Assembly (NCBI GenBank): GCA_944321505.1
Contig: CALULN010000007.1
Span: 1 to 48,837, forward strand
DNA: 48,837 nt
Reading direction: 5' to 3'
Source: Candidatus Methanomethylophilaceae archaeon
GTDB lineage: Archaea; Thermoplasmatota; Thermoplasmata; Methanomassiliicoccales; Methanomethylophilaceae
In this document: in pieces, positions 8,524 to 32,658 of the stretch
Layout of the letters: the number at the start of each line of letters is the position of its first letter
Position numbering within the stretch: position 1 is the first letter of the stretch
Position numbers and translations under genes: made by a program
The notes under the pieces: generated by a model
The model's database searches: none
Seen by the model: only the letters and a program-made list of their open reading frames with translations
Told to the model about the DNA's origin: nothing

Positions 8524-9363
8524 TCACAACGTCTCGTGCTCGTGCAGCAGATGGTCGTGCACGTCGTGGGGGTGGTGGTGCGGCGGGTCGTGCATGTACT
8601 TGGACGAATGCCTGGGGACGATGAAGGGCACCCCGCGGTGCTCGATCACATCAACCTGTATGCCGTACACATCCTCGATGAGGTCCCCGGTGATGACATC
8701 CACGTCTCCGTAGGCGGCCACATGCCCGTCCTTCAGGAAGAGGAACATGTCGGAGTAGTGTATCGCCAGGTTGATGTCGTGCATGGTCATGACGGTGGTC
8801 ATCCCCCTGGAGCGGACGATGTTCTCCACCATGTGCATCGTCGTGTGCTGATTGGAGATGTCCAGGTTGTTGGTGGGCTCGTCCAGGATCAGCACCTTCG
8901 GCTCCTGCACAAGGGCCCTGGCTATCTGCACCTTCTGGTACTCCCCGCCGCTTATCTCGTTGAGGTAGCGGAGAGACAGCCCGCTCATGCCCAAAGCATC
9001 TATGACCTCCGCGGTCTTCGCTATGTCCTGCTTCCCGGCGCTTATCTCGATGTACGGCCTCCTGCCTATGAGCACCGAGTCGAACACCGTCATGCGGGAC
9101 ATCGGCACCGATTGGGGAACGAATCCTATGTTCTTGGCCAGCTCCCTGCCTCCAAGGGAGAACACGTCGCTACCGTCCACGAACACCTTCCCGGACTGGG
9201 GGCGGTGGATGTTGCAGATACATTTCAGCATGGTGGTCTTGCCGGTTCCGTTGGGTCCCAGTATGGACACGATGTGCCCCTCCTCCGCCTCGAAGGAGAT
9301 GCCGTCGAGGATCTTCGCGTCCCCGTAGGAGAACTCAAGGCCGTCAACTTTCAGCATGCTCAT
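8524..9363 (-). CDS. FecE/BtuD-type ABC ATPase with His-rich C-terminal tail (probable nickel import)
   Basis: A 279-residue ATPase. Walker A is GPNGTGKTT, the signature is EISGGEYQKVQIARAL, Walker B is KVLILDEPTNNLDI, and the switch histidine lies in MTMHDINLAIHY. The last ~23 residues hold nine histidines with several aspartates (HHHPHDVHDH), a typical Ni/Co/Zn-binding tail that the second ABC ATPase in this window (24610) lacks. ATG at 9363 overlaps the permease stop as ATGA. Its place downstream of a NikR-type operator and next to the F430 operon makes nickel the likely cargo; family membership alone would also allow cobalamin or siderophore. Confidence 0.9.
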   Translation of the reverse strand: MSMLKVDGLEFSYGDAKILDGISFEAEEGHIVSILGPNGTGKTTMLKCICNIHRPQSGKVFVDGSDVFSLGGRELAKNIGFVPQSVPMSRMTVFDSVLIGRRPYIEISAGKQDIAKTAEVIDALGMSGLSLRYLNEISGGEYQKVQIARALVQEPKVLILDEPTNNLDISNQHTTMHMVENIVRSRGMTTVMTMHDINLAIHYSDMFLFLKDGHVAAYGDVDVITGDLIEDVYGIQVDVIEHRGVPFIVPRHSSKYMHDPPHHHPHDVHDHLLHEHETL

Positions 9364-10454
9364 ACCGTGGACCTCCTGCGGTATCCTCTGATGAGGATGT
9401 AGATGAACACAGGGCCGCCTATGAAGGACGTGATGATCCCCACGGGCACGGACATGCCGAAGGCGTAGCTGCCGACGATGTTGGACAGCAGCAGCACCAG
9501 GGCGCCCACGAGCATGGATCCCGTGAGGAGATAGCGGAAGTCGTCCCCTATCAGCCTCTTGACTATGTGCGGTGCGATCAATCCGATGAATCCGATTATG
9601 CCCATGAAGGACACCACTATTGCGGTGATCACCGCGGAGAACACCAGTCCGAGGACCCTGGTGGACTTTATGTCCACGCCCAGTCCCCTGGCCACGTCCT
9701 CGCCGGCCTCCATGGAGTTGTAGTCCCATCTCTTGTAGTAGAAGTACACGCAGACCAGGGCTAGGGCGGCCAATATGATGTACAGGTTGCTCCAGGACGC
9801 CTTGTCAAGAGCGCCGAACTGCCAGAACACGATGGCGGGGAGCGACGTGTCGTCGGCTATGTACTGGAGGAACGACAGCCCTGCGGCGAAGATGGCGTTG
9901 ATGGCCATCCCCGCAAGCACCATGGTCTCCGGGGTGCAGGCGGTGACCTTCACCAGCAGGAGGATGATGCCAGTGGCGATCATGGCGAAGATGAACGCCA
10001 CCGCCGTCACCAGGGCGGGGTTGTCCACCGAGAGGTTCAGGGTGGTGGTCCCGGATATGAGCCCCCCTCCCAGGAACATTATGGCCACGGCCGCTCCGAA
10101 GGCGGATGCGTTGGATATCCCCAGGGTGTATGGGGATGCCAGGGGGTTCCTGAGAATCCCCTGCATGACCGCCCCCGCTATCCCGAGTCCCGCGCCCGCG
10201 AGCAGCGCGGCGACGATGTTCTTCAGCCTCAGGTCCCAGACGACGGTGCTCTCCCAGGAGCTGTCGGGCCTGAAGATGTAGTGTATGATGTCTCCTAAGG
10301 AGAGATCGGTGGCTCCGAGGCGGATGGTGACCAGGCTCAGCGCCACAAGGATCACCGCCAGGCCCACCAGGAACAGGTTCTTCCTGCGGCTGAATCTTAT
10401 GTAGCCTTCCGCGGTCTCCTCGGAATGATCCGGTATGTCCACGGGTCCGTGCAT
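9360..10454 (-). CDS. FecCD/BtuC-type permease (probable nickel import)
   Basis: A 364-residue polytopic membrane protein of the FecCD family. RNPLASPYTLGISNASAFGA is the conserved GxxxxPLAxPYxLGISxGA block, and the C-terminal region FMGIIGFIGLIAPHIVKRLI contains the ATPase-coupling G-x-x-P-H segment. About ten membrane segments are evident, with a short cytoplasmic N-terminus. It starts 3 bp after the binding-protein stop and its own stop overlaps the ATPase start, so all three are translationally linked. It is the only permease of this locus and would serve both binding proteins as a homodimer. Confidence 0.92.
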   Translation of the reverse strand: MHGPVDIPDHSEETAEGYIRFSRRKNLFLVGLAVILVALSLVTIRLGATDLSLGDIIHYIFRPDSSWESTVVWDLRLKNIVAALLAGAGLGIAGAVMQGILRNPLASPYTLGISNASAFGAAVAIMFLGGGLISGTTTLNLSVDNPALVTAVAFIFAMIATGIILLLVKVTACTPETMVLAGMAINAIFAAGLSFLQYIADDTSLPAIVFWQFGALDKASWSNLYIILAALALVCVYFYYKRWDYNSMEAGEDVARGLGVDIKSTRVLGLVFSAVITAIVVSFMGIIGFIGLIAPHIVKRLIGDDFRYLLTGSMLVGALVLLLSNIVGSYAFGMSVPVGIITSFIGGPVFIYILIRGYRRRSTV

Positions 10455-12390: not shown

Positions 12391-13722
12391 TCAGTCGGCG
12401 CTCTCGATCACACCGGAGAGCCAGTCATCAGTGGACATGGCGTGCTGGTGCATGTAGGTGCCGAGGGAGCGGCCCATGACCAGGCCGTCCATCCCGTCCT
12501 TTATCCCGGTGCCGCGGATCATTTTGAAACCAAATCCGCAGCCTGCTGAAGGCACGGTCTCCGAGTAGTGGAACTCGTGGCCCCTCAGCCTCTTGTGACC
12601 GAACAGCGGGTTCTCTGGTGTGGTGTCGGCGATGACGTAAGAGGGCCCGTGCCTCCCGGCCATGCGGACCTCCGCATCGAATATGCCCGACATAGGGTGC
12701 CTGGCACCGTCGGACGTCTCAAGGGAGCCGCACATGGTCAGCAGGCCTCCGCATTCCCCCAGTATGGCCTTCCCGTCGTCCGAGGCTGTCTTGAGTCCTT
12801 CCAGGAACGCCCTGTTCTCGGAGATCTCGGAGGCGAACAGCTCCGGGTACCCTCCGCCCAGGTAGTAGAAGTCCGCATCCGGGAGATCGTCCCCTGCAAC
12901 AGGGCTGAAGTAGGTCACATCCATCCCCGCGGCCTCCATGCACTCCAGGTTCTCCCTGTAGTAGAAGCAGTATGCATCGTCCATCGGCACGGCGGCCTTC
13001 AGGCCGCAGCGGTGCTCCGCATAGGGGTCGGCGCATTCCTCCATCCAGTCTGCCTCGCCGCAGATGTCCGCGAGGCGGTCGGTGTCGATGCCCTCGGCGA
13101 GGCTCTCCAGGTGGGAGATCTCCTCTTTCCCCTCGGTGCTGATGGTCTTGAGACCCAGATGCCTCTGCCCGATGACGGCGTCGCCGGATCTCCTTACGAT
13201 GCCGACGATCTCCACGTCGGTGTATCTGTCTATGGCCTCCCTGAGCTTCCTCTCGTGCTGGGCTCCGGAGACGTTGTTCAGTATGACCCCGCGGATGTCC
13301 ACTCCGGGGTCGAACGACTTGAATCCGTTGATGACTGCGGCTGCGCTGCGGGTGAGGGATCTGGCGTTAACAACAAGTACCACAGGGAGACCCAGTATCT
13401 TCGCCATCTCGGCGGTGGAGCACTCCTCCGTGGTTCCGGAGAGCCCTTCGTAGAGCCCTCTGACGCCTTCCACGATGCACATGTCCGCGCCTCTGCAGGC
13501 GTGGGCGGCGACGCTCCTGACGGTGTCTCTGTCCATGAGGAAGGTGTCCAGGTTCCTTGACTGCCTCCCCGTGGCGGCGGTGTGGTACATGGGGTCGATG
13601 AAGTCCGGCCCCACCTTGAACGCCTGGACCCTGGTCCGGCGGGAGAGGGATGACAGCAGCCCGGTAACCACGGACGTCTTGCCGACGCCGCTGCCGGTGC
13701 CCGCTATCACCACTCCCCTCAT
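12391..13722 (-). CDS. cfbB: Ni-sirohydrochlorin a,c-diamide synthase
   Basis: ATP-dependent, glutamine-using amidation of the a and c acetates of Ni-sirohydrochlorin, step two of F430 synthesis. 443 residues like CobB/CbiA. The N-terminal P-loop domain has GTGSGVGKTS (residues 8-17) and the C-terminal class I glutamine amidotransferase has the nucleophile in GECGGL and the HEFHYSE segment. It could be cobyrinic acid diamide synthase by family alone, but the operon with cfbC, A, E and D fixes it as CfbB. Its ATG overlaps the cfbD stop as ATGA. It is the last gene of the operon. Confidence 0.93.
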   Translation of the reverse strand: MRGVVIAGTGSGVGKTSVVTGLLSSLSRRTRVQAFKVGPDFIDPMYHTAATGRQSRNLDTFLMDRDTVRSVAAHACRGADMCIVEGVRGLYEGLSGTTEECSTAEMAKILGLPVVLVVNARSLTRSAAAVINGFKSFDPGVDIRGVILNNVSGAQHERKLREAIDRYTDVEIVGIVRRSGDAVIGQRHLGLKTISTEGKEEISHLESLAEGIDTDRLADICGEADWMEECADPYAEHRCGLKAAVPMDDAYCFYYRENLECMEAAGMDVTYFSPVAGDDLPDADFYYLGGGYPELFASEISENRAFLEGLKTASDDGKAILGECGGLLTMCGSLETSDGARHPMSGIFDAEVRMAGRHGPSYVIADTTPENPLFGHKRLRGHEFHYSETVPSAGCGFGFKMIRGTGIKDGMDGLVMGRSLGTYMHQHAMSTDDWLSGVIESAD

Positions 13723-14798
13723 TCGAACTCCTCCAGCACCTCTCTGAGGGTGTTGCCCGTCTCGAGAGGTATGATGGACCTGGCGCCCATGACCATGGAG
13801 TGGGACGAGATCTCCCCCACGGCCAGGCCACAGCCCATGCTGAGGTAGTTCGCAAGCTGCCTGGGCTGGTCGGTGATGAGCACATCGTCCGGTGAATAGC
13901 CCGGATATGCGTGCGGTATGCCCGCAAGAATAAGCAGGTCGGGGCCGAAGGCGTCGATCTCCTTCCTCACATCCTCGCCGATGACGGCGTACTCGTCGAG
14001 GCCTCCGACGATCCTGTCGGGATAGGCGTCCTTCTCCTTCAGCTCCGAGAGGATGTCGTCTGCATACCTCCTGATCCTCGGGAGCCCCTTGTCGGGGTCC
14101 AGGTTGCCTACGGTGAACAGCTCCCCTCCCAGCGCCTTCTGCGCTTCGTTCAGTGCGAGGAACATGTCGGCGAAGCGGTACGCCAGCTCCTTCTTGGCGA
14201 TCATGGCGAATGCGACCTTCTTGCCGTCCTTCAGGGCCTTGGCGATCGTCCTCGCGACCTTCAGCTTGGTGGGTCCGCGGACCGGGGACAGATACTCTCT
14301 CCCGGCCATCCCCACCTTCTTCTCCATGTCGGTGGCGGCGCGCATGAGCATGGACTGGCGGTCCGCCTCGTCCTTGGGGATTATCCCCGCGGCGCATCCC
14401 GACTCTATGGCCTTCACGGCGCCGGAGGTGTTGTCCCCCATGCATCCGTGGCAGTCGACGGTGAAGGTCTTGGCCTTCACTCCTGAGCGGCGGACGGCGG
14501 CCTCCATATCCTCGCCGATGATCATGCTGGCGCATGTGCCCACGACGGCGATGGTCTTAGGGGAGAAGCGCTCGTCAGCGGTGCGGATGGCGTCGATGAG
14601 CTTCTCGGCGCCTCCGAATATGAGGTCGTCGTCCCTCATTCCGCTGGTGATTACCCTGACCCCGGCTTCCTCCAGCATCCTGGATGCCATGAAGCTGCAG
14701 CCTGCGGGCCCGTGGACGAGCACAACGTCAATGTCCATGTCCCTCAGGGTGTACAGGGCGGCGACGATGGGGTTGGGGCGGGGATGTATGACCTTCAT
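13719..14798 (-). CDS. cfbD: Ni-sirohydrochlorin a,c-diamide reductive cyclase, catalytic subunit
   Basis: The NifD-like partner of CfbC. It performs the six-electron reduction and ring closure of Ni-sirohydrochlorin a,c-diamide to seco-F430. 359 residues, short as in other CfbD proteins. Cys34 in GPAGCSFMASR and Cys89 in VVGTCASMIIGED match the cluster-binding cysteine positions of the nitrogenase fold; further cysteines lie at DCHGCMGDN. It overlaps cfbE upstream and cfbB downstream by ATGA junctions, indicating coupled translation. Confidence 0.94.
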   Translation of the reverse strand: MKVIHPRPNPIVAALYTLRDMDIDVVLVHGPAGCSFMASRMLEEAGVRVITSGMRDDDLIFGGAEKLIDAIRTADERFSPKTIAVVGTCASMIIGEDMEAAVRRSGVKAKTFTVDCHGCMGDNTSGAVKAIESGCAAGIIPKDEADRQSMLMRAATDMEKKVGMAGREYLSPVRGPTKLKVARTIAKALKDGKKVAFAMIAKKELAYRFADMFLALNEAQKALGGELFTVGNLDPDKGLPRIRRYADDILSELKEKDAYPDRIVGGLDEYAVIGEDVRKEIDAFGPDLLILAGIPHAYPGYSPDDVLITDQPRQLANYLSMGCGLAVGEISSHSMVMGARSIIPLETGNTLREVLEEFE

Positions 14799-16009
14799 TG
14801 GAAGCCTTCCTTGACGAAGCGGATGACGGTCTTCGCATCCTCCGGGACATCGGGTTCGGACCCCATGCTGTCGGTGAACGCGTACCTGACGCCGTGGGAC
14901 TCCAGCACTCTGCGTATCTCCGCGGAGTCCATCTTGTCGCACACCTTCTTGCTGACCGGGTCCACTATGGCGAATGCGCCGTCCAGTGCTCCCAGGTCCT
15001 CGAGGCACGAGAGGGTGCGGCCGATGGAGATGTGGGAGATCCCCGGGTTGCGCTCGGTGACCTTCCATATGCCATTCTCGATGCGGATCTCCCCTCTTCC
15101 GGGGACTCCTCCGAAGGTCCGGAGGCCTTCGGCGACGACGGACGCGGGGATCCCCATCTCCAGGCAGATGCGGCAGGCGGTCTGCATGGCGGGGATGTAC
15201 TGCAGCGACATGTACCCGCCTCCGAGGTCCGTGCGGATCTCCTCGCCGCCGTAGTCCAACGCTATGCCCACGGGCTCCCCGATCCTCGGGGAGCCGGTCA
15301 GGAGGATGGTGTCCCCGCAGAGCGTCAGGGGCTTCCCGTATCTGCTCCAGATGCCCTCCTCGGATGCGGGCACGATGTTCACGCCGTCGTTCAGGATCTC
15401 CGCCTTGGCGTCGGATGCCCTGCGGGTGTTCCTGGCGATGCCGTAGTCCTCTGCGAGGTTGGTGATGGCGGAGATGTCTGCCTTGCCGCTTCCGCCGAGG
15501 GAGACCTCGCACACGATTACGTCGTAACCATCGGAAGGAAGTTTGAGGATGGAGGTGGGGGCTATGCTCATCTTCTTCTCGATCAGATGCTTCCCGCCGG
15601 AATACGGCCCGGTGCCCCTGGATGTGTGCAGGTACACCTTCTTCCCGGAGGCGTCGAGGATGTGGGCGAGGACGTAGCAGGTGCTGGTCTTGCCTTTGAC
15701 TCCCGTCACCTCGATGCGGTATATGCCTTTGTCAACGAACATGTTGACGGCACCGCTGAAGGTGATCCTCGAGGAAAATGTGCACCCCTTCAGGAACACG
15801 TCGGGGCAGTGGGCAGGCGACACCAGGAGGTCGAAACCCTCCGGAGGCACCTCTCCGAGCACCCTTGCGCCGGAAGCCGTCAGGGAATCCCTCTGCTCCT
15901 GCGTGGAGATGCCGTACACGTCCACGCAGGTGACGTCGTCCCCCTCTCCGAGGAAGCGGCCGGCGAGGATGTCCCCGCCGTGGGTGAGATCGAGGATGAG
16001 CACCCTCAT
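14795..16009 (-). CDS. cfbE: Coenzyme F430 synthetase (MurF-like)
   Basis: ATP-dependent closure of the last carbocyclic ring, converting seco-F430 to F430. 404 residues with Mur-ligase features: the P-loop GVKGKTST near residue 103, a central domain, and a C-terminal domain with a substrate loop (ISHISIGRT, FAIVDPVSKKVC). ATG at 16009 lies 3 bp after the cfbA stop, and the stop overlaps the cfbD start. In isolation it would be called a Mur-ligase-like protein; the operon identifies it. Confidence 0.93.
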   Translation of the reverse strand: MRVLILDLTHGGDILAGRFLGEGDDVTCVDVYGISTQEQRDSLTASGARVLGEVPPEGFDLLVSPAHCPDVFLKGCTFSSRITFSGAVNMFVDKGIYRIEVTGVKGKTSTCYVLAHILDASGKKVYLHTSRGTGPYSGGKHLIEKKMSIAPTSILKLPSDGYDVIVCEVSLGGSGKADISAITNLAEDYGIARNTRRASDAKAEILNDGVNIVPASEEGIWSRYGKPLTLCGDTILLTGSPRIGEPVGIALDYGGEEIRTDLGGGYMSLQYIPAMQTACRICLEMGIPASVVAEGLRTFGGVPGRGEIRIENGIWKVTERNPGISHISIGRTLSCLEDLGALDGAFAIVDPVSKKVCDKMDSAEIRRVLESHGVRYAFTDSMGSEPDVPEDAKTVIRFVKEGFQ

Positions 16010-16011
16010 CT

Positions 16012-16794
16012 TCACGCCTCGATTGCTTTCCTGATCTTGGCGGCCAGGACGTTGGTCAGCCTGGGGTCGGTCCCGATGGGGGTGAGGTAGTGCATCCTCA
16101 CCTTGCGCCCGTCCTGCTCGAACTCGCCGGTGCCGAAGTCGGGCACGTGGAGCTTGGCGGGCAGGTCGTTCTTCAGGTGGTCTCCGGCGGAGATGAACAG
16201 GGGCAGCGCCACGATCTCCTCGGCGCCGTCGGCGATCATCCTGTCGAGCACCTCCTCGATGGTGGGGGTGTTCAGCTCGTTGAAGGCCGCGTAGGCCTTG
16301 ATGCCCATCTCGTTCAGGCGCTGGGCGTTGGTCTCGATGACCTCCTTGTTGAAGGGCAGCCTGGACCCGTGGCCGATGACGATGGCAGCGGACTTCATGC
16401 CCTTGGTGACGGCCATCCTGTACTTGTCCGCCAGGATCTCGGTGAGCATGGGGTCCTTCCCGAAGGGCTCGTCGAAGAACACCTCCATGTCCTTCCCGTA
16501 CCTGGTGGAGGTCCCGGACTTCACGTTCTCGGGGAGCCCCAGCTTGGGGGGTATGTCCCTGGTCATGTGGAGGCCGGATGCGATGAAGAAGGGGACGGCG
16601 ATGACCCTGTCGATGCCGTCGTCGGCCATCTGCTTCATCGAGTCCTCGATGTAGGGCCTGCACATCTCGTTGAATCCGATGTACACGTTCTCGAACCCCA
16701 TGTTCCTCAGGCGCTCCGCCTGCTCGCCGATGATCTTCTTGTTGTACTCGTAGCTGGACCCGTGGCCCAGGATGAGGATTCCTGTCTTGCTCAT
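16012..16794 (-). CDS. cfbA: Sirohydrochlorin nickelochelatase, tandem two-domain form
   Basis: Inserts Ni2+ into sirohydrochlorin, the first F430 step. Family members of the CbiXS/CfbA type are usually ~120-145-residue homodimers. This one is 260 residues and has two clear copies: GHGSSYEYNKKIIGEQAERL with FFIASGLHMTRDIPPKL, and GHGSRLPFNKEVIETNAQRL with LFISAGDHLKNDLPAKL. The metal-chelating histidine pair is kept in both halves (H11/H76 and H142/H206). The chain therefore resembles a covalently linked dimer. The gene follows cfbC by 36 bp, the largest gap in the operon, with no operator seen. Confidence 0.92.
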   Translation of the reverse strand: MSKTGILILGHGSSYEYNKKIIGEQAERLRNMGFENVYIGFNEMCRPYIEDSMKQMADDGIDRVIAVPFFIASGLHMTRDIPPKLGLPENVKSGTSTRYGKDMEVFFDEPFGKDPMLTEILADKYRMAVTKGMKSAAIVIGHGSRLPFNKEVIETNAQRLNEMGIKAYAAFNELNTPTIEEVLDRMIADGAEEIVALPLFISAGDHLKNDLPAKLHVPDFGTGEFEQDGRKVRMHYLTPIGTDPRLTNVLAAKIRKAIEA

Positions 16795-16830
16795 TGTATC
16801 CCTCTTGAAGAATCCGTTTGTGTTGGAGTT

Positions 16831-17607
16831 TCACTGTCCCCGCATCCCGCCCGAGCGGTCCTCGGAGCGTTCCAGGAGCTTCTTCGCCAGTTCGCGGTAC
16901 GATTCCGCCTGGGCGGAATCCGGCTCCCCGCCGATGACGGTGGTGAGCTTCGCCTCGCAGCGCTGGACCGAAGGGTCCCTGGCGATGCGGTGCACCACTT
17001 CGGTGCCGATCTCCCCGCATGCCCTATCCACCAGCGCGTCCTCGTCCGCCACGTTCCTGGAGTTCTGGATGACCCCGCCGAGCCTGGCGTAGCCGTCCCC
17101 GGAGAAGTTGGAGACGGCCTCGGCGATGTTGCTGGCCGCATAGAGGGCCATCATCTCGCCGGAGGTGACGATGAACACGTCGTTGGCATAGCCGTTGCGG
17201 ATCGGCATGGCGAATCCCCCGCAGACCACGTCCCCCAGGACGTCGTAGATGATGACGTCCGGGCGGTAGCGGTCCACCGCTCCCAGCCTCTCGAGGGTCT
17301 CGAAGGCCGCGATGATCCCCCTGCCCGCGCACCCCGTTCCGGGTCTGGGCCCTCCGCACTCGACGCAGAGGCATCCGCCAGCTCCTTCGACGACAACGTC
17401 GTCGAGGTCGACGGACCCCCTGTCCCTCAGGGTCTCCAGAACGGTCGGGCAGCTCCTGCCTCCGAGAAGCAGGCGGGTGGAGTCGGACTTGGGGTCGCAG
17501 CCGATCTGCATGACCTTAAGCCCCATCTCCGTCATCGCCGCGGTGATGTTGGCGGAAGTGGTGGATTTTCCGATGCCACCCTTCCCGTAGACGGCTATTC
17601 TTCTCAC
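16831..17607 (-). CDS. cfbC: Ni-sirohydrochlorin a,c-diamide reductive cyclase, Fe-protein subunit
   Basis: A NifH-like ATP-dependent electron donor to CfbD. 258 residues. The P-loop is GKGGIGKST (8-16), the switch region is GCDPKSDST, and the bridging 4Fe-4S cluster ligands are Cys93 in GCAGRGI and Cys129 in GDVVCGGF. The start is GTG at 17607, about 25 bp downstream of a TATA-like element embedded in a NikR-type operator, so the transcript is probably leaderless. It is the first gene of cfbC-A-E-D-B. Confidence 0.95.
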
Positions 17608-24609: not shown

Positions 24610-25446
24610 TCAGGATACGGCTGCCCCGACTCCGGCGGGTACGGCTGTCTTGCCTGCCCCCGGCGCTCCTTCGTCGATGGGTATCGCATCCTTCAGGATC
24701 ACATGCGGTCTGCCGTCATCGTCGATAACCTTGGCTTTCACCCCGTACACGACGGACAGGTTCTCCTCCGTTATCACCTCCGCAGGGGTTCCCACGTCGA
24801 ATATCCTCCCTTCGTGCATCAGGATGATCTGGTCTGCGAACTTCGCGGTGATGCTGATGTCGTGGCTGATCATTATCGTTAGTATACCCTTCTTGATGGT
24901 CAGATCCTTCAGCATCCTCGTCACATCCAGCTGGTGCCTTATGTCCAGATTGGAGGTGGGCTCGTCCAGGAGCAGTATCTTCGATTCCTGCACCAGGCCT
25001 CTCGCCAGCATGACCTTCTGGTGCTGTCCTGCCGACAGCTCGCTGAACGGCCGCATGGCCAGATGCGATATGCCCAGCATCTTCAGGGTGTCGTACGCGA
25101 TCTCAAGGTCCCTGTCCAGGCTCCCCCATTTGGAATGGGGGTGCCTGCCCATCAGAACGGTGTCCACCACCGTCAGCGGGAAGGAATCGTTCGCCGAGTA
25201 GGGGACATAGCCCACCTCCTTGGCCATCTGCTTCACCGTGTAATCCCTGACGTCCTTGCCGTCGATCAGCACGGATCCGCCGGTAGGCTCCAGGATCTTG
25301 TTTATGCAGTGTATCAGCGTGGATTTCCCGACTCCGTTCGGTCCGAGGATCGATACGAAGCGGGGTCCGTCCAGATCCAGCGTGACATCCTTCAGCACGG
25401 GTACGCTGGAGTACCCGAAATCCAGTCCGTTTATGTTCAGATGCAT
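24610..25446 (-). CDS. FecE/BtuD-type ABC ATPase of the nitrogenase-like locus
   Basis: 278 residues. Walker A is GPNGVGKST, the signature is ELSAGQHQKVMLARGL (LSAGQ variant), Walker B is ILLLDEPTSNLDI, and the switch His lies in ISHDISITAKF. It has no His-rich tail, unlike the ATPase at 8524. It begins 10 bp after the NifK-like stop, so it is transcribed with the enzyme while its permeases are on the divergent side. It should pair with the FecCD permeases at 30470 and 31561. Confidence 0.9.
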   Translation of the reverse strand: MHLNINGLDFGYSSVPVLKDVTLDLDGPRFVSILGPNGVGKSTLIHCINKILEPTGGSVLIDGKDVRDYTVKQMAKEVGYVPYSANDSFPLTVVDTVLMGRHPHSKWGSLDRDLEIAYDTLKMLGISHLAMRPFSELSAGQHQKVMLARGLVQESKILLLDEPTSNLDIRHQLDVTRMLKDLTIKKGILTIMISHDISITAKFADQIILMHEGRIFDVGTPAEVITEENLSVVYGVKAKVIDDDGRPHVILKDAIPIDEGAPGAGKTAVPAGVGAAVS

Positions 25447-25456
25447 CGAAACACCT

Positions 25457-26704
25457 TCAGAATCTGTTCACCACCCTTTCCAGGATGTACAACGCTCCTG
25501 CCGCACCGAAAACCGGCTGAGGCAGGAACTCCACATTCATCATCGACGGGAACCGCAGGTCCACGCCCCTGAGGCAGTGTCCGGAGCGCTGATGGATGTC
25601 GGCTGTGTTCCCGTCCGTGCACAGAATCTCCACATAGTCCGGGATGTCCGCGCCGAGGACGTCGGTCATCCCGTGCTCTGCCAGGAAGGAGGACATGTCG
25701 TCCTCCGACCATCTGTGCGATATCCCGTTGTAGCAGATCGACCTCGGGACCATCTGCAGGTTGTCGTACAGGAACCTCGTCAGAGGGTATGCGATGGAGG
25801 GTTCGGCATCGATGGCGAAGCCGAACGTGTCAGTGTCGAATCTGGCCGCCATCATCCTCCTGTATGCGCGCTTCTTGACGGAGTCCACATACGCCAATGC
25901 GGCCGAGGGGTCCTTCCCGGTGATCTCGGACACTTTTCTTATCCAGTCTTCGGTGGCCTGGAACCCCACTGGGGAGCAGTCCGGCTCTATCGTCTTGACG
26001 CCGTGTCTGTCGCGGTAGTATCCCGCGAGGTATTGGGAGTACTCTGGGCAGACGGTGACCGTGAACTCCGCAGAAACGGATCCGCGAAGCTCTGCGGCCG
26101 TGCACCCAGCTCCCACGTTGCAGACGACCCTGAGCCCCATAAGACCCAGTATCCTGGAGAACTCCTCGTTCACCGACTCCCAGTCCTTCTGCAGCAGATG
26201 GTTCCCTAGGAGGGCGACGGTATCCGGGACCTTGGGTACCGGCTCCGGGTCCATCTTCTCCAGGACCCTCCTCAGCGTCAGGTCGATCCCGACGTTGATG
26301 GGTCTGGAGCTGAGGTCGGCGTCGAGGACGATGGCCTTGTCCGACAGGCCCGCCTCGTCGATCCCCTTCTGACAGTCGTCGCCGATGAGCGATGCTCCGG
26401 GGGAGCAGACGACGGCAACGAACCCGGGATCTCTCTCGCGGATGTATCCGAGGGCGTCCCTGACCCTGTCGTAGGAGCCGTAGATGTAGTCGCAGGGCTC
26501 CAGGTCCGTGCACGGTATCCTGGAACCGCCCCTGTAGTACGGGGTGGCCAGCGTGACCGTCCTGTCCCTGCGGGGGTAGACCTTCATGGTCAGGGCCCCC
26601 AGGTTCTTCCTGCAGCCGTCGGGGCCGTGCATCAGGACCGTGGAGTCTGCTATGCCCTCTATCGCCATGGTGACGCCGAAGAAACCGTCCGGCTTGACTA
26701 TCAT
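25457..26704 (-). CDS. NifK-like subunit of an uncharacterised nitrogenase-like enzyme
   Basis: 415 residues of the nitrogenase component 1 fold. Cys31 in MHGPDGCRKNLG and Cys100 in VVCSPGASLIGDDC match the second and third P-cluster cysteines of NifK. The first is absent: the short N-terminus MIVKPDGFFG has no cysteine. Extra cysteines lie at 65, 71 and 111. The ATG overlaps the TGA of the NifHD fusion, so synthesis is coupled. It is distinct from CfbD, which works as a single type of subunit. The presence of separate D- and K-like chains is more like nitrogenase, DPOR, COR or methylthio-alkane reductase. The substrate is unknown. Confidence 0.85.
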   Translation of the reverse strand: MIVKPDGFFGVTMAIEGIADSTVLMHGPDGCRKNLGALTMKVYPRRDRTVTLATPYYRGGSRIPCTDLEPCDYIYGSYDRVRDALGYIRERDPGFVAVVCSPGASLIGDDCQKGIDEAGLSDKAIVLDADLSSRPINVGIDLTLRRVLEKMDPEPVPKVPDTVALLGNHLLQKDWESVNEEFSRILGLMGLRVVCNVGAGCTAAELRGSVSAEFTVTVCPEYSQYLAGYYRDRHGVKTIEPDCSPVGFQATEDWIRKVSEITGKDPSAALAYVDSVKKRAYRRMMAARFDTDTFGFAIDAEPSIAYPLTRFLYDNLQMVPRSICYNGISHRWSEDDMSSFLAEHGMTDVLGADIPDYVEILCTDGNTADIHQRSGHCLRGVDLRFPSMMNVEFLPQPVFGAAGALYILERVVNRF

Positions 26705-28944
26705 GGAGTCACCCCCTTGCCCACCATCGGGCGTGCGCCGGCCCCCATCCCCATGCCGCGCATGCCTTTGGTCGCTTCGGACGGCATGCCGCGGGGGACG
26801 GCTGCTTCCGCTCCTCTCCATTTCCTCCATCCGGCCTCTTTCGAGCCCACCATCAGGTTATGCAGGTAGTCCAGGTACTCGATGGCCGCATAGTGGGTGA
26901 AGCACTGGTACGACCGGCTGAATTCCTTCATCTGCTGTCCATGCCAACCGATGATGGCTCCTCCTATGACCACGTCCGGGTCGTCCGCCTCCACCGCCAT
27001 CCGAATCTTCATGGGGTTGCCGGATACGATCGTCTCCACGCGGTCCGAGAACCTGCTCTCCCTCGGCCGCTGGCCCCCTGCCCCCATCCTCATCTCGAGG
27101 ATGAACAGGTGACGCACCTCCGCGCCGGCGTCCAGCAGCGTCTCAATCATCCAGTCGTCGTCAGAGAAGATGCCGGCGATTATGTCCACCACCTTCCCTT
27201 CGAAGAACGGCCTCTGTTTCTCGATGGCAGCGCGGTAGTCGCGTTCGGCCTTCGCCATGACAGTCTTGGCGGCCTCCTCTATGCCATATTCTTTCCCGAC
27301 TGCCTCCACCCATCTCAGCGTCTGAGAGTATCCCTTGGGGAGCGGGAGGCCGAACACGGACATGCCTTTGGCCTCCATGGCCTCGGCCATGTCCTGTATG
27401 GTCTCGACATCGAACACCTTGACGTTCAATCTGTTCCTCTTGCAGTCTACCGCTTCCTCCAGCGAGATGTCGTCGAAGATCTTGTGCACCTTGGCGAAGC
27501 CGAGATCGTTGAGCAGCCTGACGGTCCATTCCCCGTTCCTGCCGGATCCGTAGAGGATGAAGTTGTCGTCGATGAGATTGGCCTCCATCCTGTCAGGCTC
27601 CTGTGTTTCGTCTATCAGCCCGATGATCTCCCTCATGGCCATCATGCGTCCGTCCTCGGATCCGCCTGTCAGGTTCCCGTCGGCCTTCACAAGCATGATG
27701 TTGAGTCCGGGGAACTCCTTCTCCATCCTCTCCTTGATGAGGTCCAGGTTGTCACCGATCATCCCCGGGACGCAGGTGGTGACGACCATCACCGTCCTCT
27801 TCCCCTTCTCCGCCTCGGCCCTGATCATCATCTCGAGGTCCCTATGCCCTCCGAAGATCGACGAATCGTTGGTCATCCTGGTGGAGAGGATGTTGTTCCT
27901 CAGTTTCGGCACCGAATCAGGATTGGTGCCCATCTCGGTCAGGAAATGGACATCCTGCGTGTGCGACATGACGTATCCGCAGCTTGCGGGTCCGTGGATG
28001 ATGATCGGGAGGTCGTTGACCCTCCCGGCGGCGAAGACCGCTCCGCGGCTGGCGCATGAGCCTTTGTTGGTGCGCCTGGCGTCACACCGGCAGGCCTCTC
28101 GCTTGAAGTTCCCCAGGATAGCGATCTCCTTCCCCGCGGCGAAATCGTTCAGCTGGTCGTCGCTGAGAGGGTGGGGGTCGAACAGCTCCCTTCTACCTTC
28201 TGCGACGGCTATGACATCTTCCGCAAGACCTGCATAGATGGATGCGGGGACCGAATCCGGGAACGCCTCTGAAACGGTCATGCCCAGCTTCTCAGCCTCC
28301 GCATACTCCTTCGAGCGGGGGACGTCGACGACGACCGGCAGCCCGACAGCGGATGCGAACCTCCGGACCGTCTCCTCCTCCCCGTCAACGTTCCTCCTGT
28401 TGAGGATCAATCCGGCCACACGGGGTCTGGCACTGCCGAAGTTGAGCAGTCCGCGCAGTATGTTGTTGGCGGCATAGATGGCCATGAACTCGCCGGAGGT
28501 GACTATGTACACGGCATCTGCGTACTCGTTCCTCATGGGCACAGCGAACCCTCCGCAGACCACGTCGCCGAGGACGTCGTAGACGGTGACGTCCCTCTCT
28601 ATGCTATCGACGCCCATCTTGGAGAGGACGTCGAATGTGGTCAGTATGCCTCTTCCCGCGCATCCGATCCCGGGTTCGGGTCCGCCGGCTTCGATGCACA
28701 TAACTCCGCCGGAACCGGTCAACATGATGTCGGACAGCTTCCTCTCGGAGGGAACGGTGTCGCGAACGTAATCCAGTACCGTGTTCTGCGTTCTGGCTCC
28801 TATCAGGTATTTGGTCGAGTCGTGCTTGGGATCGCATCCGACTTGCATCACCCTCTTACCCGCTTTCCCCAGCGAGTACGAGAGGTTCGAAGATGTAGTC
28901 GACTTGCCGATTCCGCCCTTTCCGTAAACCGCTATCTGCAACAT
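26701..28944 (-). CDS. Single-chain NifH-NifD-like fusion of a nitrogenase-like enzyme
   Basis: 747 residues in one continuous frame. Residues 1-~265 are a complete Fe protein: P-loop GKGGIGKST (8-16), GCDPKHDST (36-44), cluster ligands Cys95 (GCAGRGI) and Cys130 (GDVVCGGF). After a short linker, ~275-700 is NifD-like, with Cys297 (GSCASRG), Cys322 (GPASCGY) and Cys391 (TTCVPGMIGD) at the three P-cluster positions; Cys285/287 precede them. Residues 700-747 are a Gly/Met/Lys-rich tail. ATG at 28944 starts the P-loop strand; an in-frame upstream start lacks homology. TATA spacing predicts a nearly leaderless mRNA. ATP-driven low-potential reduction is expected; the substrate is unknown. N2 fixation is unlikely because nifE, N and B are not nearby. 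Confidence 0.88.
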   Translation of the reverse strand: MLQIAVYGKGGIGKSTTSSNLSYSLGKAGKRVMQVGCDPKHDSTKYLIGARTQNTVLDYVRDTVPSERKLSDIMLTGSGGVMCIEAGGPEPGIGCAGRGILTTFDVLSKMGVDSIERDVTVYDVLGDVVCGGFAVPMRNEYADAVYIVTSGEFMAIYAANNILRGLLNFGSARPRVAGLILNRRNVDGEEETVRRFASAVGLPVVVDVPRSKEYAEAEKLGMTVSEAFPDSVPASIYAGLAEDVIAVAEGRRELFDPHPLSDDQLNDFAAGKEIAILGNFKREACRCDARRTNKGSCASRGAVFAAGRVNDLPIIIHGPASCGYVMSHTQDVHFLTEMGTNPDSVPKLRNNILSTRMTNDSSIFGGHRDLEMMIRAEAEKGKRTVMVVTTCVPGMIGDNLDLIKERMEKEFPGLNIMLVKADGNLTGGSEDGRMMAMREIIGLIDETQEPDRMEANLIDDNFILYGSGRNGEWTVRLLNDLGFAKVHKIFDDISLEEAVDCKRNRLNVKVFDVETIQDMAEAMEAKGMSVFGLPLPKGYSQTLRWVEAVGKEYGIEEAAKTVMAKAERDYRAAIEKQRPFFEGKVVDIIAGIFSDDDWMIETLLDAGAEVRHLFILEMRMGAGGQRPRESRFSDRVETIVSGNPMKIRMAVEADDPDVVIGGAIIGWHGQQMKEFSRSYQCFTHYAAIEYLDYLHNLMVGSKEAGWRKWRGAEAAVPRGMPSEATKGMRGMGMGAGARPMVGKGVTP

Positions 28945-28979
28945 GAGATGGGGTTTCAGATTATTCCGATTATTTATTT

Positions 28980-29012
28980 TTGGTGTTCCTAAAACATTTT
29001 TAGGAAAGCCAA
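28980..29012. promoter_or_regulatory. Long palindrome in the divergent promoter of the nitrogenase-like/importer locus
   Basis: The left arm TTGGTGTTCCTAAAA and right arm TTTTAGGAAAGCCAA pair at 13 of 15 positions around a 3-nt centre. TATA-like elements flank it on both sides: AAAAATAAATAAT on the minus strand near 28972 and AAATTAATAAA on the plus strand near 29018. One bound protein could thus control both operons. The CCTAAAA/TTTTAGG core recalls archaeal DtxR-type metal operators; no regulator gene is adjacent. Confidence 0.7.
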
Positions 29013-29055
29013 AATTAATAAACGGCATGCAGCCTATAGGTGCCTGGGACAACCT

Positions 29056-30420
29056 ATGACAAACAAATTGTTAGCTGGAATAGTTGCAGTAGTTGTCATC
29101 GTCGCAGCCGTCGCTGCGGCGATAGTCGTCCTCTCCGACAAGGGGAATCCTGCCACAGGACAGGAGTACAGCGACCTGCAGCTGATAATCTACGGAAATG
29201 CGAACAATGATTTCACCATCGACGATTCGGATCTCGCTATAGTCAATTCTATAATTAACGGGGAGATCGCCGACGGTCTCAAGACGTACCCCTTCGCCGA
29301 TGTCAACTGCGACGGCACAGTGGATTCGTCTGATGTCACTCTCCTTCAGAGCATCATCAAACGCGAAACATGCACCATAAACGTAGCATGCATCGATTCC
29401 ACCGGAAAGAACGTGGCCGTCCCGGTTCAGTACCCCGTAAGCAACATCGCCCTCTACGGGTTGAACATCATCAATTCCGCTCTGTCCGCCAATGTCGGTA
29501 CCCATGTGGTGGCTTATGCCAGCCCATCCGGGACCTATGCGAATGCACATTCAAGCATGCAGGGTCAGAACTTCTTCAGCAACGGGGCCTTCGATTGGCA
29601 GACGTTCATGAACGTGGATACGCAGACGCCCATCGGTGCGCTCTTCTGCGACTACAGCTACGTCTCGAGCTTCATGGACGGCGAGATCTTCGACACCCTC
29701 AGGGATGCGGAGATCCCCGTTGTCATCTATTCTCCGTCGAGTCCGGATGAGCAGACCTCGGCCACCGCCACCATCGGGTTCCTCTGCGGACAGGAGACAG
29801 AAGAGGTCGGCTACAAGTACGCCAAACTGTGCCTCGATGTCATGGAGGAGATCGGCGCAAAGACCGCCGGCATCGCCGATGCGGACAGGGCCTCGTTCAT
29901 CGGAGCCACTATGTACATCGTTCTCCTGAACAACAGCAACGCCTCCCAGGAGATCGGCAGGCTCGCCGGAGGGGTCCCCTACTACGAGGTCAATGAGGAG
30001 TACAGGAGCCTCTACGACGCTCCGTCGGTAAACCCCATGAACATCAACAGGGAGTCTCTGGCCAACTTCCAGGACGCAGATGTGTACATGAGCGTCCGCA
30101 CGTCGGACTTCGGGGGAGATCCCAACCAGACCGTCATAGCGAATTTCGAGTACGTCTATTACAACATCTGCAATTCGCTCGAGTTCTACGACGGTGTCCT
30201 GGACAGGATGTGCTTCATCAACAACCTTCTGCCCGGTGTGATAAAGGCGGCCTATCTTGCCGAGATGATGTACCCGGACCTCTTCAATGGATACGGAGAC
30301 AAGGTGGCCCAGCAGTTCATCGACGCCGGATTCGCTCCATTCGAGGGTCAGACCGTCCAGTCGCTGATGGGCTGCCTGACCTACCAGGATTACCTGGATG
30401 CCAAAGCCGCCTCGTCCTGA
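29056..30420 (+). CDS. Substrate-binding protein with N-terminal dockerin-like repeats
   Basis: 454 residues. Membrane anchor at ~5-27. Two EF-hand-like dockerin repeats follow: GNANNDFTIDDSDLAIVNSI (~46-65) and DVNCDGTVDSSDVTLLQSII (~82-101), with Ca2+-ligand D/N spacing. From ~108 to the end is a FecB/BtuF-type binding fold. Dockerins normally plug into cohesins to build surface complexes; here the module may tether the binding protein to a partner or act only as a Ca2+-stabilised spacer. No cohesin is seen in the window. It is divergent from the nitrogenase-like operon. Confidence 0.85.
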   Translation: MTNKLLAGIVAVVVIVAAVAAAIVVLSDKGNPATGQEYSDLQLIIYGNANNDFTIDDSDLAIVNSIINGEIADGLKTYPFADVNCDGTVDSSDVTLLQSIIKRETCTINVACIDSTGKNVAVPVQYPVSNIALYGLNIINSALSANVGTHVVAYASPSGTYANAHSSMQGQNFFSNGAFDWQTFMNVDTQTPIGALFCDYSYVSSFMDGEIFDTLRDAEIPVVIYSPSSPDEQTSATATIGFLCGQETEEVGYKYAKLCLDVMEEIGAKTAGIADADRASFIGATMYIVLLNNSNASQEIGRLAGGVPYYEVNEEYRSLYDAPSVNPMNINRESLANFQDADVYMSVRTSDFGGDPNQTVIANFEYVYYNICNSLEFYDGVLDRMCFINNLLPGVIKAAYLAEMMYPDLFNGYGDKVAQQFIDAGFAPFEGQTVQSLMGCLTYQDYLDAKAASS

Positions 30421-30469
30421 GCGAATCGCCAAACCTCTTACACAAACCTCTTCTCGGTTCGGGATTGAA

Positions 30470-31564
30470 ATGGAGACCATAAATGAAGTGAACGACAGGG
30501 AGGAGATGGTCCGGCAGTACCATCGCGGGATCCTCCGCAAGCTGGTCATCCTCGCGGTCTTGGTCGCAGGGATCGTGCTCATGGTCGGCGCGATGGCGCT
30601 GACCGTCTACGATGGGCTGACCCTCAGCGAGGCATACGGCGTGATTTGGGCCCACATAACCGGGCAGGAGTTCCCCCTCCGCTCCGAGTACTGGTGGGCC
30701 GATCGGTACATCTGGAACATCGCCATGCTCCATGCTGTGGCCGCCATCGTCTGCGGTGCCGGGCTGGCATGCTGCGGGTCCCTGATGCAGTCGCTGATGT
30801 CCAATCCGCTGGCTGATCCTTACAGCACGGGGATATCCTCCGGCGCATGCCTCGGCGCCATGGCGGCGATAATCATGGGGGTCTCCATGGCATCGTTATC
30901 CGGCAGCGCCGGGACCGCAGTGAACGCCTTCGTCGGCGCCATGGTGCCTGCGGCGCTGATAGTGGTGATATCCGAGCGCATCCGTATGACGCCGGCGACG
31001 CTGATCCTCATAGGCACCGCCCTGTCCATGTTCTTCGGGGCGCTGATGTCGTTCATGATGGTCTCCACCGACTCGGACACCCTTCAGGAGGCTTACCTCT
31101 GGCAGGTAGGCAACTTCGGGAACCTTACCTGGAGCGCCATCCCCATCATGGTGTCCGTGACCGCAGTCGGCAGCGCATTGGTCATGATGCTCACATCGAA
31201 GCTGAACGTGATGTCGTTGGGCGACACAAGCGCACAGTCCCTCGGGATCGACGTACGCAGGTTCAGGACCCTCGCCATCACCCTTATGGCCGTCATGACG
31301 GCGGCGCTGGTCGCATTCGTCGGGGTCATCGGCTTCGTGGGGCTGGTATGTCCGCACATCGTCAGGCTGCTGACCGGTTCGGACAACAAGTATGTCATAC
31401 CCCTATCGATGGCGCTTGCCGTCCTGCTCATGCTGGTGGCGTGCTATCTCTCCCTCTCGTTCTCCAGCCTTCCGGTGGGTGTGGTCATCAGCGCCCTCGG
31501 CGCTCCGATATTCTTCCTGATGATCGTTATGTCCAAGAACAGCGGAAAGGGGGCGATCTACTGA
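30470..31564 (+). CDS. FecCD-type permease 1 of the nitrogenase-like locus
   Basis: 364 residues, about ten membrane segments. SNPLADPYSTGISSGACLGA is the family hallmark and FVGVIGFVGLVCPHIVRLLT the coupling region. ATG at 30470 follows the binding-protein stop by 49 bp; an in-frame start further upstream lacks hydrophobic or conserved sequence. The stop overlaps the presumed CTG start of permease 2. Two permease genes suggest a heterodimeric channel, unlike the single permease of the nickel locus. Confidence 0.9.
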   Translation: METINEVNDREEMVRQYHRGILRKLVILAVLVAGIVLMVGAMALTVYDGLTLSEAYGVIWAHITGQEFPLRSEYWWADRYIWNIAMLHAVAAIVCGAGLACCGSLMQSLMSNPLADPYSTGISSGACLGAMAAIIMGVSMASLSGSAGTAVNAFVGAMVPAALIVVISERIRMTPATLILIGTALSMFFGALMSFMMVSTDSDTLQEAYLWQVGNFGNLTWSAIPIMVSVTAVGSALVMMLTSKLNVMSLGDTSAQSLGIDVRRFRTLAITLMAVMTAALVAFVGVIGFVGLVCPHIVRLLTGSDNKYVIPLSMALAVLLMLVACYLSLSFSSLPVGVVISALGAPIFFLMIVMSKNSGKGAIY

Positions 31565-32658
31565 CCTTCAGCTTCCAGTTCAGACGCTTCGAGGGTCTCG
31601 TTGAGGACGGGGACATACGCTCGGCCTACAACAGGGAGCGCAACCGCAAGATCACCTTCATCCTGATCATGGCGGTAATCGCCGCTGCGGCGTTTCTCTT
31701 GACCCTCGGTGTAGGAACGTACCGCATAGGGGAGTGGGATGCCATCGTCGTGTTCTTCCAGCACATCACCGGCAACGTGACCGACGTCCGTGCCGATCAT
31801 TACATCTGGGACATAAGGGCCCCCAGAGCAGCGGCCGCCATACTGGTGGGTGCAGGTCTGGCTGTCGGCGGGGTCGTGATGCAGAACCTCCTCCGGAACC
31901 CGCTGGCCGAGCCGTACACCATGGGCGTATCCTCGGGGGCCATGTTCGGGGTCACGCTGAGCATAGGGCTGGGGATCTCGGTGTTCCCCTTCCTGGGGCA
32001 GAACGTCGCCACTATGGCCAACGCGTTCCTGTTCTCGCTCATACCAGTCGCCATAATCGTCGCGATCTCGGCATTCAAGAAGGTCACGTCGGCGATGATG
32101 ATCCTGACGGGAATCGCGGTGATGTACCTTTTCTCATCGGTCAACCAGATCGTCCTGACCACGTCGTCCTCGGAGACGATGACTGAGATCTACTCCTGGA
32201 CGATAGGGACCCTGGCCCGTGCCGACTGGGAGAACATCCCGATAATCGCCGCGGTGTCGGTGGTGCTCAGCCTTGTGATTTACGCTATGTCGCGGAGGCT
32301 GGATCTGATGTATTCCGGTGACAGAAGCGCCCAGTCCCTCGGTCTCAGGGCCGGGGCCTTCAGGATCCTCATGCTGGCGCTGGTCTCGTTCCTCACAGCC
32401 ACCCTGGTCTGCTGCACGGGCACCATAGGCTTCGTCGGCCTGGTGGCCCCGCATGTCGCCAGGATATTCGTGGGTTCGGGCAACAGGTACCTTCTACCGG
32501 CTTCGGTGGCATTCGGTGTCGCATTCCTGCTGGTGGCGGACACCATCGCGAAGATGGTCGGCACCGGCGGACTCCCCGTCGGCGTCATCAGCTCCCTGGT
32601 GGGAGGGCCGCTGTTCCTGTACATCCTGATAAGGCAGCGGAGGCGCGCCTGGATGTGA
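31561..32658 (+). CDS. FecCD-type permease 2 of the nitrogenase-like locus, probable CTG start
   Basis: 365 residues from CTG at 31561. RNPLAEPYTMGVSSGAMFGV and GTIGFVGLVAPHVARIFV are the family motifs. No ATG, GTG or TTG is available before the first membrane segment: the first ATG (in LIMAVIAA) lies inside it. GGGGGCGATC, 8 of 10 matches to GGAGGTGATC, sits 2 bp before CTG, and the CTG overlaps the preceding TGA as CTGA. A CTG start is therefore the simplest reading. It would pair with permease 1 and the ATPase at 24610. Confidence 0.85.
   Translation: MTFSFQFRRFEGLVEDGDIRSAYNRERNRKITFILIMAVIAAAAFLLTLGVGTYRIGEWDAIVVFFQHITGNVTDVRADHYIWDIRAPRAAAAILVGAGLAVGGVVMQNLLRNPLAEPYTMGVSSGAMFGVTLSIGLGISVFPFLGQNVATMANAFLFSLIPVAIIVAISAFKKVTSAMMILTGIAVMYLFSSVNQIVLTTSSSETMTEIYSWTIGTLARADWENIPIIAAVSVVLSLVIYAMSRRLDLMYSGDRSAQSLGLRAGAFRILMLALVSFLTATLVCCTGTIGFVGLVAPHVARIFVGSGNRYLLPASVAFGVAFLLVADTIAKMVGTGGLPVGVISSLVGGPLFLYILIRQRRRAWM

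Follow-up and report, generated by a model that had tools for sequence, protein, structure and literature searches.

Why should a nitrogenase-like enzyme be encoded back to back with an importer? The question is raised by positions 24610-32658 of the 48,837-nucleotide stretch analyzed here (the window), which is contig C7 of the 1.39-Mb genome of a gut-type methanogen of the order Methanomassiliicoccales. This locus consists of two divergent gene runs. The leftward run encodes a NifH-NifD fusion (NifHD), a NifK-like chain and an importer-type ATP-binding cassette (ABC) ATPase, and the rightward run a membrane-anchored dockerin binding protein followed by two FecCD permeases. The evidence presented below favors, with a probability of about one half, an import-and-reduce module whose ligand would be a metal-tetrapyrrole, most likely a corrinoid, reduced at the cost of ATP, with nitrogen gas an improbable substrate.

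The locus and the corrinoid genes of its relatives

Pfam matches recovered every component that the first-pass annotation had named, in the same places. On the minus strand, the 747-residue fusion (26701..28944) combines a PF00142 domain (E 2e-87) with a PF00148 domain (E 3e-43), and its start, previously placed at a TTG at 29052, was corrected to the ATG at 28944. Its stop codon overlaps the ATG of the NifK-like gene (25457..26704; PF00148, E 5e-43) in the motif ATGA. The ATPase, of the FecE/BtuD/HmuV type, follows at 24610..25446 (PF00005, E 7e-31), and its closest NCBIfam models, those of heme, corrinoid and Fe-dicitrate importers, all score under their cut-offs. On the plus strand, the putatively secreted and anchored binding protein (29056..30420) carries in order an N-terminal membrane segment, a type I dockerin (residues ~44-104; PF00404, E 2e-6) and a class III periplasmic-binding domain. 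Permease A (30398..31564; PF01032, E 4e-71) precedes permease B (31565..32658; PF01032, E 3e-79), the start of which is putative. Its frame is open from before 31483, no ATG, GTG or TTG was found in 31483-31669, and 31669 falls within the first membrane segment; a rare start codon or a frameshift is possible. With a FecCD permease, a matching ATPase and a class III binding protein, the set belongs to the FecBCD/BtuFCD importer class. No ligand-specific importer model scored above its cut-off, and BtuF is one among many fold matches. The AlphaFold model of the binding protein (predicted local distance difference test, pLDDT, 85.6) was matched by Foldseek to FepB, YiuA, CeuE, HmuT and BtuF; this predicted fold was dropped as evidence for the ligand, since it resembles siderophore, heme and B12 binding proteins alike.

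The association of enzyme and importer is kept in relatives, as had been proposed for a metal- or corrinoid-type importer. NifHD protein matches occur in 130 of the 147 genomes of the order, often with several paralogs per genome, a count obtained with a loose E-value and including NifH alone. FecCD genes are found at 21 of the 33 archaeal family loci of at least 15 kb (counted from a single source to avoid duplicate contigs, several paralogs from single genomes being included), the window genome holds four FecCD loci in total, and this widespread linkage exceeds chance. Gene order is more variable. Ortholog L057 has the same divergent split as the window, while four others (L055, L056, L058, L059) are read in one direction as HD-K-FecCD-FecCD-binding protein-ATPase, so that the idea of a split importer that forces co-regulation does not hold generally. 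The more distant L064 is arranged as HD-K-binding protein-FecCD-FecCD-ATPase. TAG (or TGA) codons occur in frame within NifHD of L064 (9301-11436) and of some other relatives; TAG is read as pyrrolysine by members of the order Methanomassiliicoccales. An ABC-2 type exporter (ATPase and permease) also lies near NifHD-K in L035, L066, L073, L083, L088, L100, L106 and others, and in many paralogous loci it is often positioned between NifHD-K and the FecCD importer.

What the importer carries is indicated by the company of the family at large. That the bacterial fusions fall in one clade with the archaeal ones counts in favor of a corrinoid ligand. Since cobalamin riboswitches are frequent in these genomes, at 1 to 15 per genome, their proximity to the enzyme was tested. 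They are present at 9 of the 28 bacterial loci, where chance would give 1.25 (P ~1.3e-6, a genome-wide density being assumed for 7 of the 28 loci); the 20 loci with a measured density alone give 4 against 0.74 expected (P 0.005). In L137 (Syntrophobacteraceae), a single run comprises the riboswitch, a TonB receptor, NifHD, NifK, Peripla_BP_2, FecCD and the ATPase. A riboswitch stands directly upstream of NifHD in L188, where NifK, an ATP:corrinoid adenosyltransferase (PF02572, E 1e-64), a TonB receptor and TonB follow, and where a second riboswitch precedes the CbiM/CbiQ cobalt-transport genes. Tandem riboswitches stand ahead of a TonB receptor and NifH in L189, and L201 has one upstream of NifHD, in the same orientation. 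Riboswitch-headed runs are also seen in L122 (Urinicoccus massiliensis) and L192 (the latter riboswitch weak, at 34.6 bits), where NifHD-K is surrounded by genes for an ABC ATPase and for SLH and DUF4430 proteins, and in L136, L147 and L190 the riboswitch is located after NifK and before DUF4430 genes.

The neighboring enzymes are of the same kind. The adenosyltransferase recurs in L202 (E 3e-63), divergent from H-D-K and with convergent methylmalonyl-CoA mutase and MeaB genes, and in the archaeal L041 (E 5e-59), only ~8 bp upstream of NifHD. CbiZ (PF01955), the archaeal corrinoid-salvage amidohydrolase, is part of the contiguous order BtuF-FecCD-FecE-CbiZ-ChlI-ChlD-NifHD-NifK in three archaeal loci (L051, L093, L069), and of FecCD-FecE-CbiZ-NifHD-NifK in three more (L119, L134 and L114, the last with a NifD piece). 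DUF4430 proteins, whose domain type is found at the transcobalamin C-terminus (PMC4350170), adjoin NifHD in L122, L136, L142, L147, L190 and L192. Proteins of the SLH and alpha/alpha-toroid (Prenyltrans-type) kinds stand beside them in L122, L190 and L192, and these sets look like bacterial two-part transcobalamins. Among the ligands first listed, a corrinoid is thus favored by the riboswitch, CbiZ and adenosyltransferase operons, and the sulfur, nitrogen and free-metal options are disfavored.

Some of these same neighborhoods can be read differently. The enzyme could make or finish a reduced metal-tetrapyrrole cofactor, in the manner of DPOR, COR or CfbCD, the transporter bringing a precursor or a metal. 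ChlI/ChlD-type chelatase subunits share operons with NifHD in L051, L069 and L093 and lie nearby in L040, L049, L070, L073 and L118, a CbiA/CfbB-type amidase adjoins NifK in L053, and the [4Fe-4S]-only cysteine pattern described below is DPOR-like. This biosynthetic role is nevertheless judged improbable. CbiZ and the adenosyltransferase are salvage and activation genes, and none of the genes near the window copy was seen to encode a chelatase. The window moreover encodes a separate Cfb set, in line with the earlier view that its CfbC and CfbD serve F430: the run cfbB-cfbD-cfbE-cfbA-cfbC, on the minus strand at 12391-17607, looks complete, with CfbD near 13719-14800 and CfbC at 16831-17607. 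A second FecCD permease/ATPase importer at 8524-10454, with a single permease, is unlinked to any nitrogenase-like gene. Rfam and tRNA scans of the window gave no match.

Family placement and cluster ligands

The first-pass annotation had called for a phylogeny against the characterized nitrogenase-like groups. In a FastTree analysis of 112 D chains and 23 reference sequences, all HD-fusion D chains, from archaea and anaerobic bacteria alike, group in one clade (support 1.0) that excludes the Nif, Vnf, Mar, Bch and Cfb references. The same clade was recovered with an IQ-TREE mixture model on 69 rows (Shimodaira-Hasegawa-like approximate likelihood ratio test, 99). The HD-fusion family is therefore distinct from each characterized clade compared in these trees. 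Neither result that would have counted against the first-pass idea appeared: the chains are not placed inside the Mar, Nif, Bch or Cfb clades, and the importer linkage is widespread. The nearest neighbor of the family is Nif/Mar with FastTree and BchN/BchY with IQ-TREE; no sister group is claimed, the models being in conflict and the topology test non-discriminating.

Profile models point the same way. The fusion scores 60 bits against the nifD cut-off of 654, and 311 against 402 bits for CfbC and 24 against 268 for CfbD (NF033200/TIGR03282), the true CfbC of the window being likewise under its cut-off (336 against 402). Scores with the DPOR/COR equivalog models are far under cut-off, and no chlorophyll genes were seen among the annotated neighbors. 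The predicted structure of the D domain (pLDDT 79) has NifE as its closest fold, then MarD and NifD.

A sharper view comes from the residues that hold the clusters. In the window fusion, the H domain has a P-loop and the two [4Fe-4S] cysteines (GCAGRGI, VVCGGFA), and the D domain has three cluster cysteines and an Asp at the cofactor-Cys position, as seen in the translation and alignments. In the methylthio-alkane reductase, MarD Cys270 and His429 ligate [Fe8S9C], and the MarK P-cluster cysteines are residues 32, 56 and 121 (PMC12552129). The three P-cluster-type cysteines of the D chain are kept in 103, 110 and 112 of the 112 D chains. No D chain has a Cys in the Cys270 column, the His429 column is mostly Tyr, Ser or Val with His not among the common residues, and the equivalent of Cys275, the FeMoco ligand, is absent. 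On the K side, the Cys56 equivalent is present in all 102 chains, position 32 has lost its Cys in all but 2 of 102 (mostly Gly or Ser), and position 121 is Pro in 98 of 102. The window chain keeps Cys31 (HGPDGC), has lost the first MarK-type P-cluster cysteine, and has a Cys two residues off position 121. With three cysteines from D and one from K, a single bridging [4Fe-4S] cluster between the two chains is predicted, as in DPOR.

These residues bear directly on a third proposal, that of a methylthio-alkane reductase-like or sulfonate-reducing enzyme which would act on an imported sulfur compound by means of an [Fe8S9C] cluster made by NifB. By sequence, the D domain finds its best PDB match in MarD (E 4.5e-12), and a clade joining the HD-fusion and Mar/Nfl D chains costs only 0.38 log-likelihood units (approximately unbiased test, p-AU 0.5) and is not rejected. 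The genome also contains a NifB above its cut-off. In methanogens, however, NifB is accounted for by the activation of MCR (PMC12176620), and for this reason it was not taken to indicate a complex cofactor. The loss of the Cys270 and His429 ligands and of two of the three K-chain P-cluster cysteines, together with FecCD importers and corrinoid genes unsuited to small thioethers, makes a sulfur substrate very improbable. The Treponema saccharophilum plasmid pTS2 (L205) encodes two Mar-like D-K pairs, an ABC transporter and NifX-type proteins.

The intergenic palindrome and the iron alternative

Between the divergent start codons lies an operator-like inverted repeat (28974..29018), the shared palindrome of the first description. 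Its arms (28974-28994 and 28998-29018) are 86% complementary and its core, TTCCTAAAACATTTTTAGGAA at 28986-29006, is single-copy in its own genome when up to 3 mismatches are allowed. It is bordered on both sides by AT-rich, TATA-like stretches, a position from which it would act on both promoters. A related palindrome, TTWGGTTATYCTAA...TTAGRATAACCWAA, precedes NifHD in all five orthologs checked (L055-L059). A second, different class (~TTGGATnnnnATCCAA) is found upstream of the NifHD paralogs L038, L042, L063, L066, L068 and L074; a genome scan for it gave few exact sites with patternless neighbors, and no regulon is claimed.

The window-clade operator resembles the consensus of the DtxR/IdeR iron box, which suggests iron control. 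This is the first of several points that weigh against a corrinoid ligand for the window copy. Corrinoid genes were not found beside it or beside its closest orthologs. The genome carries CbiC and may therefore make corrins itself, so that an argument from absent de novo corrin synthesis failed. Genome G044 holds both the window-type ortholog L057 and the adenosyltransferase-linked paralog L041, and paralogs may differ in substrate; the ligand of the window paralog could then differ from that of its relatives. The paired permeases and the FepB/YiuA-like best fold match are as typical of siderophore importers. Finally, the Co(I) step is one that we infer for every family member.

These observations outline a system for iron acquisition, in which the importer would take up an iron chelate (siderophore) or a heme-type iron tetrapyrrole and the enzyme would reduce it, freeing the iron. 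The operator, the paired FecCD permeases, a binding-protein fold closest to FepB, YiuA and CeuE with HmuT also listed, and an ATPase whose closest model, under its cut-off, is a heme importer are all consistent with such a function. A parallel exists on the Sporomusa termitida plasmid pSPTER (L206, 4949-13080), where an unfused NifH-D-K set directly follows FecBCDE-type genes (binding protein, two permeases, ATPase) in a locus with a TonB siderophore receptor, an AraC regulator and an esterase-like gene. Its D and K chains fall outside the HD-fusion family; the operon was thus rejected as a close relative, and suggests instead that there is a second nitrogenase-like system, this one linked to siderophores. 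Against the iron proposal, corrinoid genes accompany the family at large, and the window operator has no second genomic copy at up to 3 mismatches. The clade consensus half-site matches perfectly at a single further place in the genome, beside DUF3793/DUF2099 genes, and other sites lie near LRR, Sel1 and TatD genes; these hits were uninformative. It is on account of the limits set by the window copy (operator, CbiC, G044 paralogs, fold, missing corrinoid neighbors) that the corrinoid is given an even chance and iron is retained as a rather unlikely alternative, ahead of the biosynthetic and sulfur proposals.

Predicted reaction and relation to known systems

For an imported corrinoid, the cluster type, substrate and reaction that we infer would combine as follows. 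Import of the metal-tetrapyrrole would fall to the dockerin binding protein together with the two FecCD permeases and the ATPase. The NifH domain would accept low-potential electrons and pass them on one at a time in an ATP-driven transfer, across the predicted bridging [4Fe-4S] cluster, for which NifD would supply three cysteines and NifK one. The imported molecule would sit in the NifD-NifK cavity and receive the electrons there. The likeliest reaction would bring the cobalt from Co(III) or Co(II) down to Co(I) and might also remove the upper ligand, after which the corrinoid would be open to adenosylation or remodeling; upper-ligand stripping or a ring change may be considered in its place. 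Formation of Co(I) for adenosylation would suit transfers of single electrons at very low potential, and would agree with the neighboring adenosyltransferase genes. More tentatively, the HD-fusion family may constitute a new class of ATP-driven corrinoid reductases that make Co(I) for salvage adenosylation in anaerobes by nitrogenase-type electron gating, the archaeal paralogs having diversified to several imported metal-tetrapyrroles with one importer per enzyme.

Among known enzymes, DPOR (BchLNB) and COR (BchXYZ) offer one close parallel, with a NifH-type ATP-driven reductase, a D-K type partner, a probable tetrapyrrole substrate and, in the IQ-TREE analysis, BchN/BchY placed with the HD-fusion family. 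As judged from the alignments, the three D-chain cluster cysteines and the single bridging cluster predicted here follow the same plan. The family departs from them in its fused H and D domains, in a K chain that retains a Cys where BchB has none, and in a substrate that is probably an imported corrinoid. CfbCD is likewise an archaeal nitrogenase-like tetrapyrrole reductase, and CfbC is the closest, if below cut-off, model of the NifH domain. CfbD, however, is homomeric and encoded apart in the same window, whereas the system described here combines a D/K pair with an importer. MarHDK has comparable H, D and K chains, but of the six P-cluster cysteines and the Cys270/His429 pair of MarDK, four of eight ligands are absent from the HD family. 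The Mo, V and Fe nitrogenases differ by their Cys275 and by their Nif/Vnf clade, outside of which the family falls.

The first-pass annotation considered the system undescribed. This holds for its function: a literature search, covering few subscription papers, found no paper in which corrinoid salvage genes are connected with a nitrogenase-like enzyme. It does not hold for the gene itself, since a fused nifH/nifE gene was noted in 2014 as a landmark of the order Methanomassiliicoccales (PMC4153887). The "group VI" NifH homologs, compared here by published description only, were labeled as putative tetrapyrrole biosynthesis genes (PMC9391474), and the presence of an active-site cluster in them is debated (PMC12176620). 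Cobalamin reductases have been reported in the form of CobR (PMC4083273) and PduS (PMC2982820).

The BtuCDF/CbiZ/CobO corrinoid salvage systems share the importer class of the window locus, and relatives of the HD enzyme are located within such operons. To our knowledge, the established salvage pathways include no nitrogenase-like enzyme, and the enzyme that reduces Co(II) to Co(I) corrinoids in strict anaerobes is largely unsettled. Should the present proposal be correct, an ATP-driven enzyme of the nitrogenase-like kind, controlled by cobalamin riboswitches and encoded next to adenosyltransferases, would close this gap and bring imported cofactors within the reach of nitrogenase-like chemistry. 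It would also help to explain the frequent multiple sets in gut and rumen Methanomassiliicoccales, whose methane formation depends on corrinoid methyltransferases. If the window clade handles iron or heme instead, the locus would represent a new anaerobic iron route, next to relatives that carry the same enzyme and importer class into corrinoid salvage operons.

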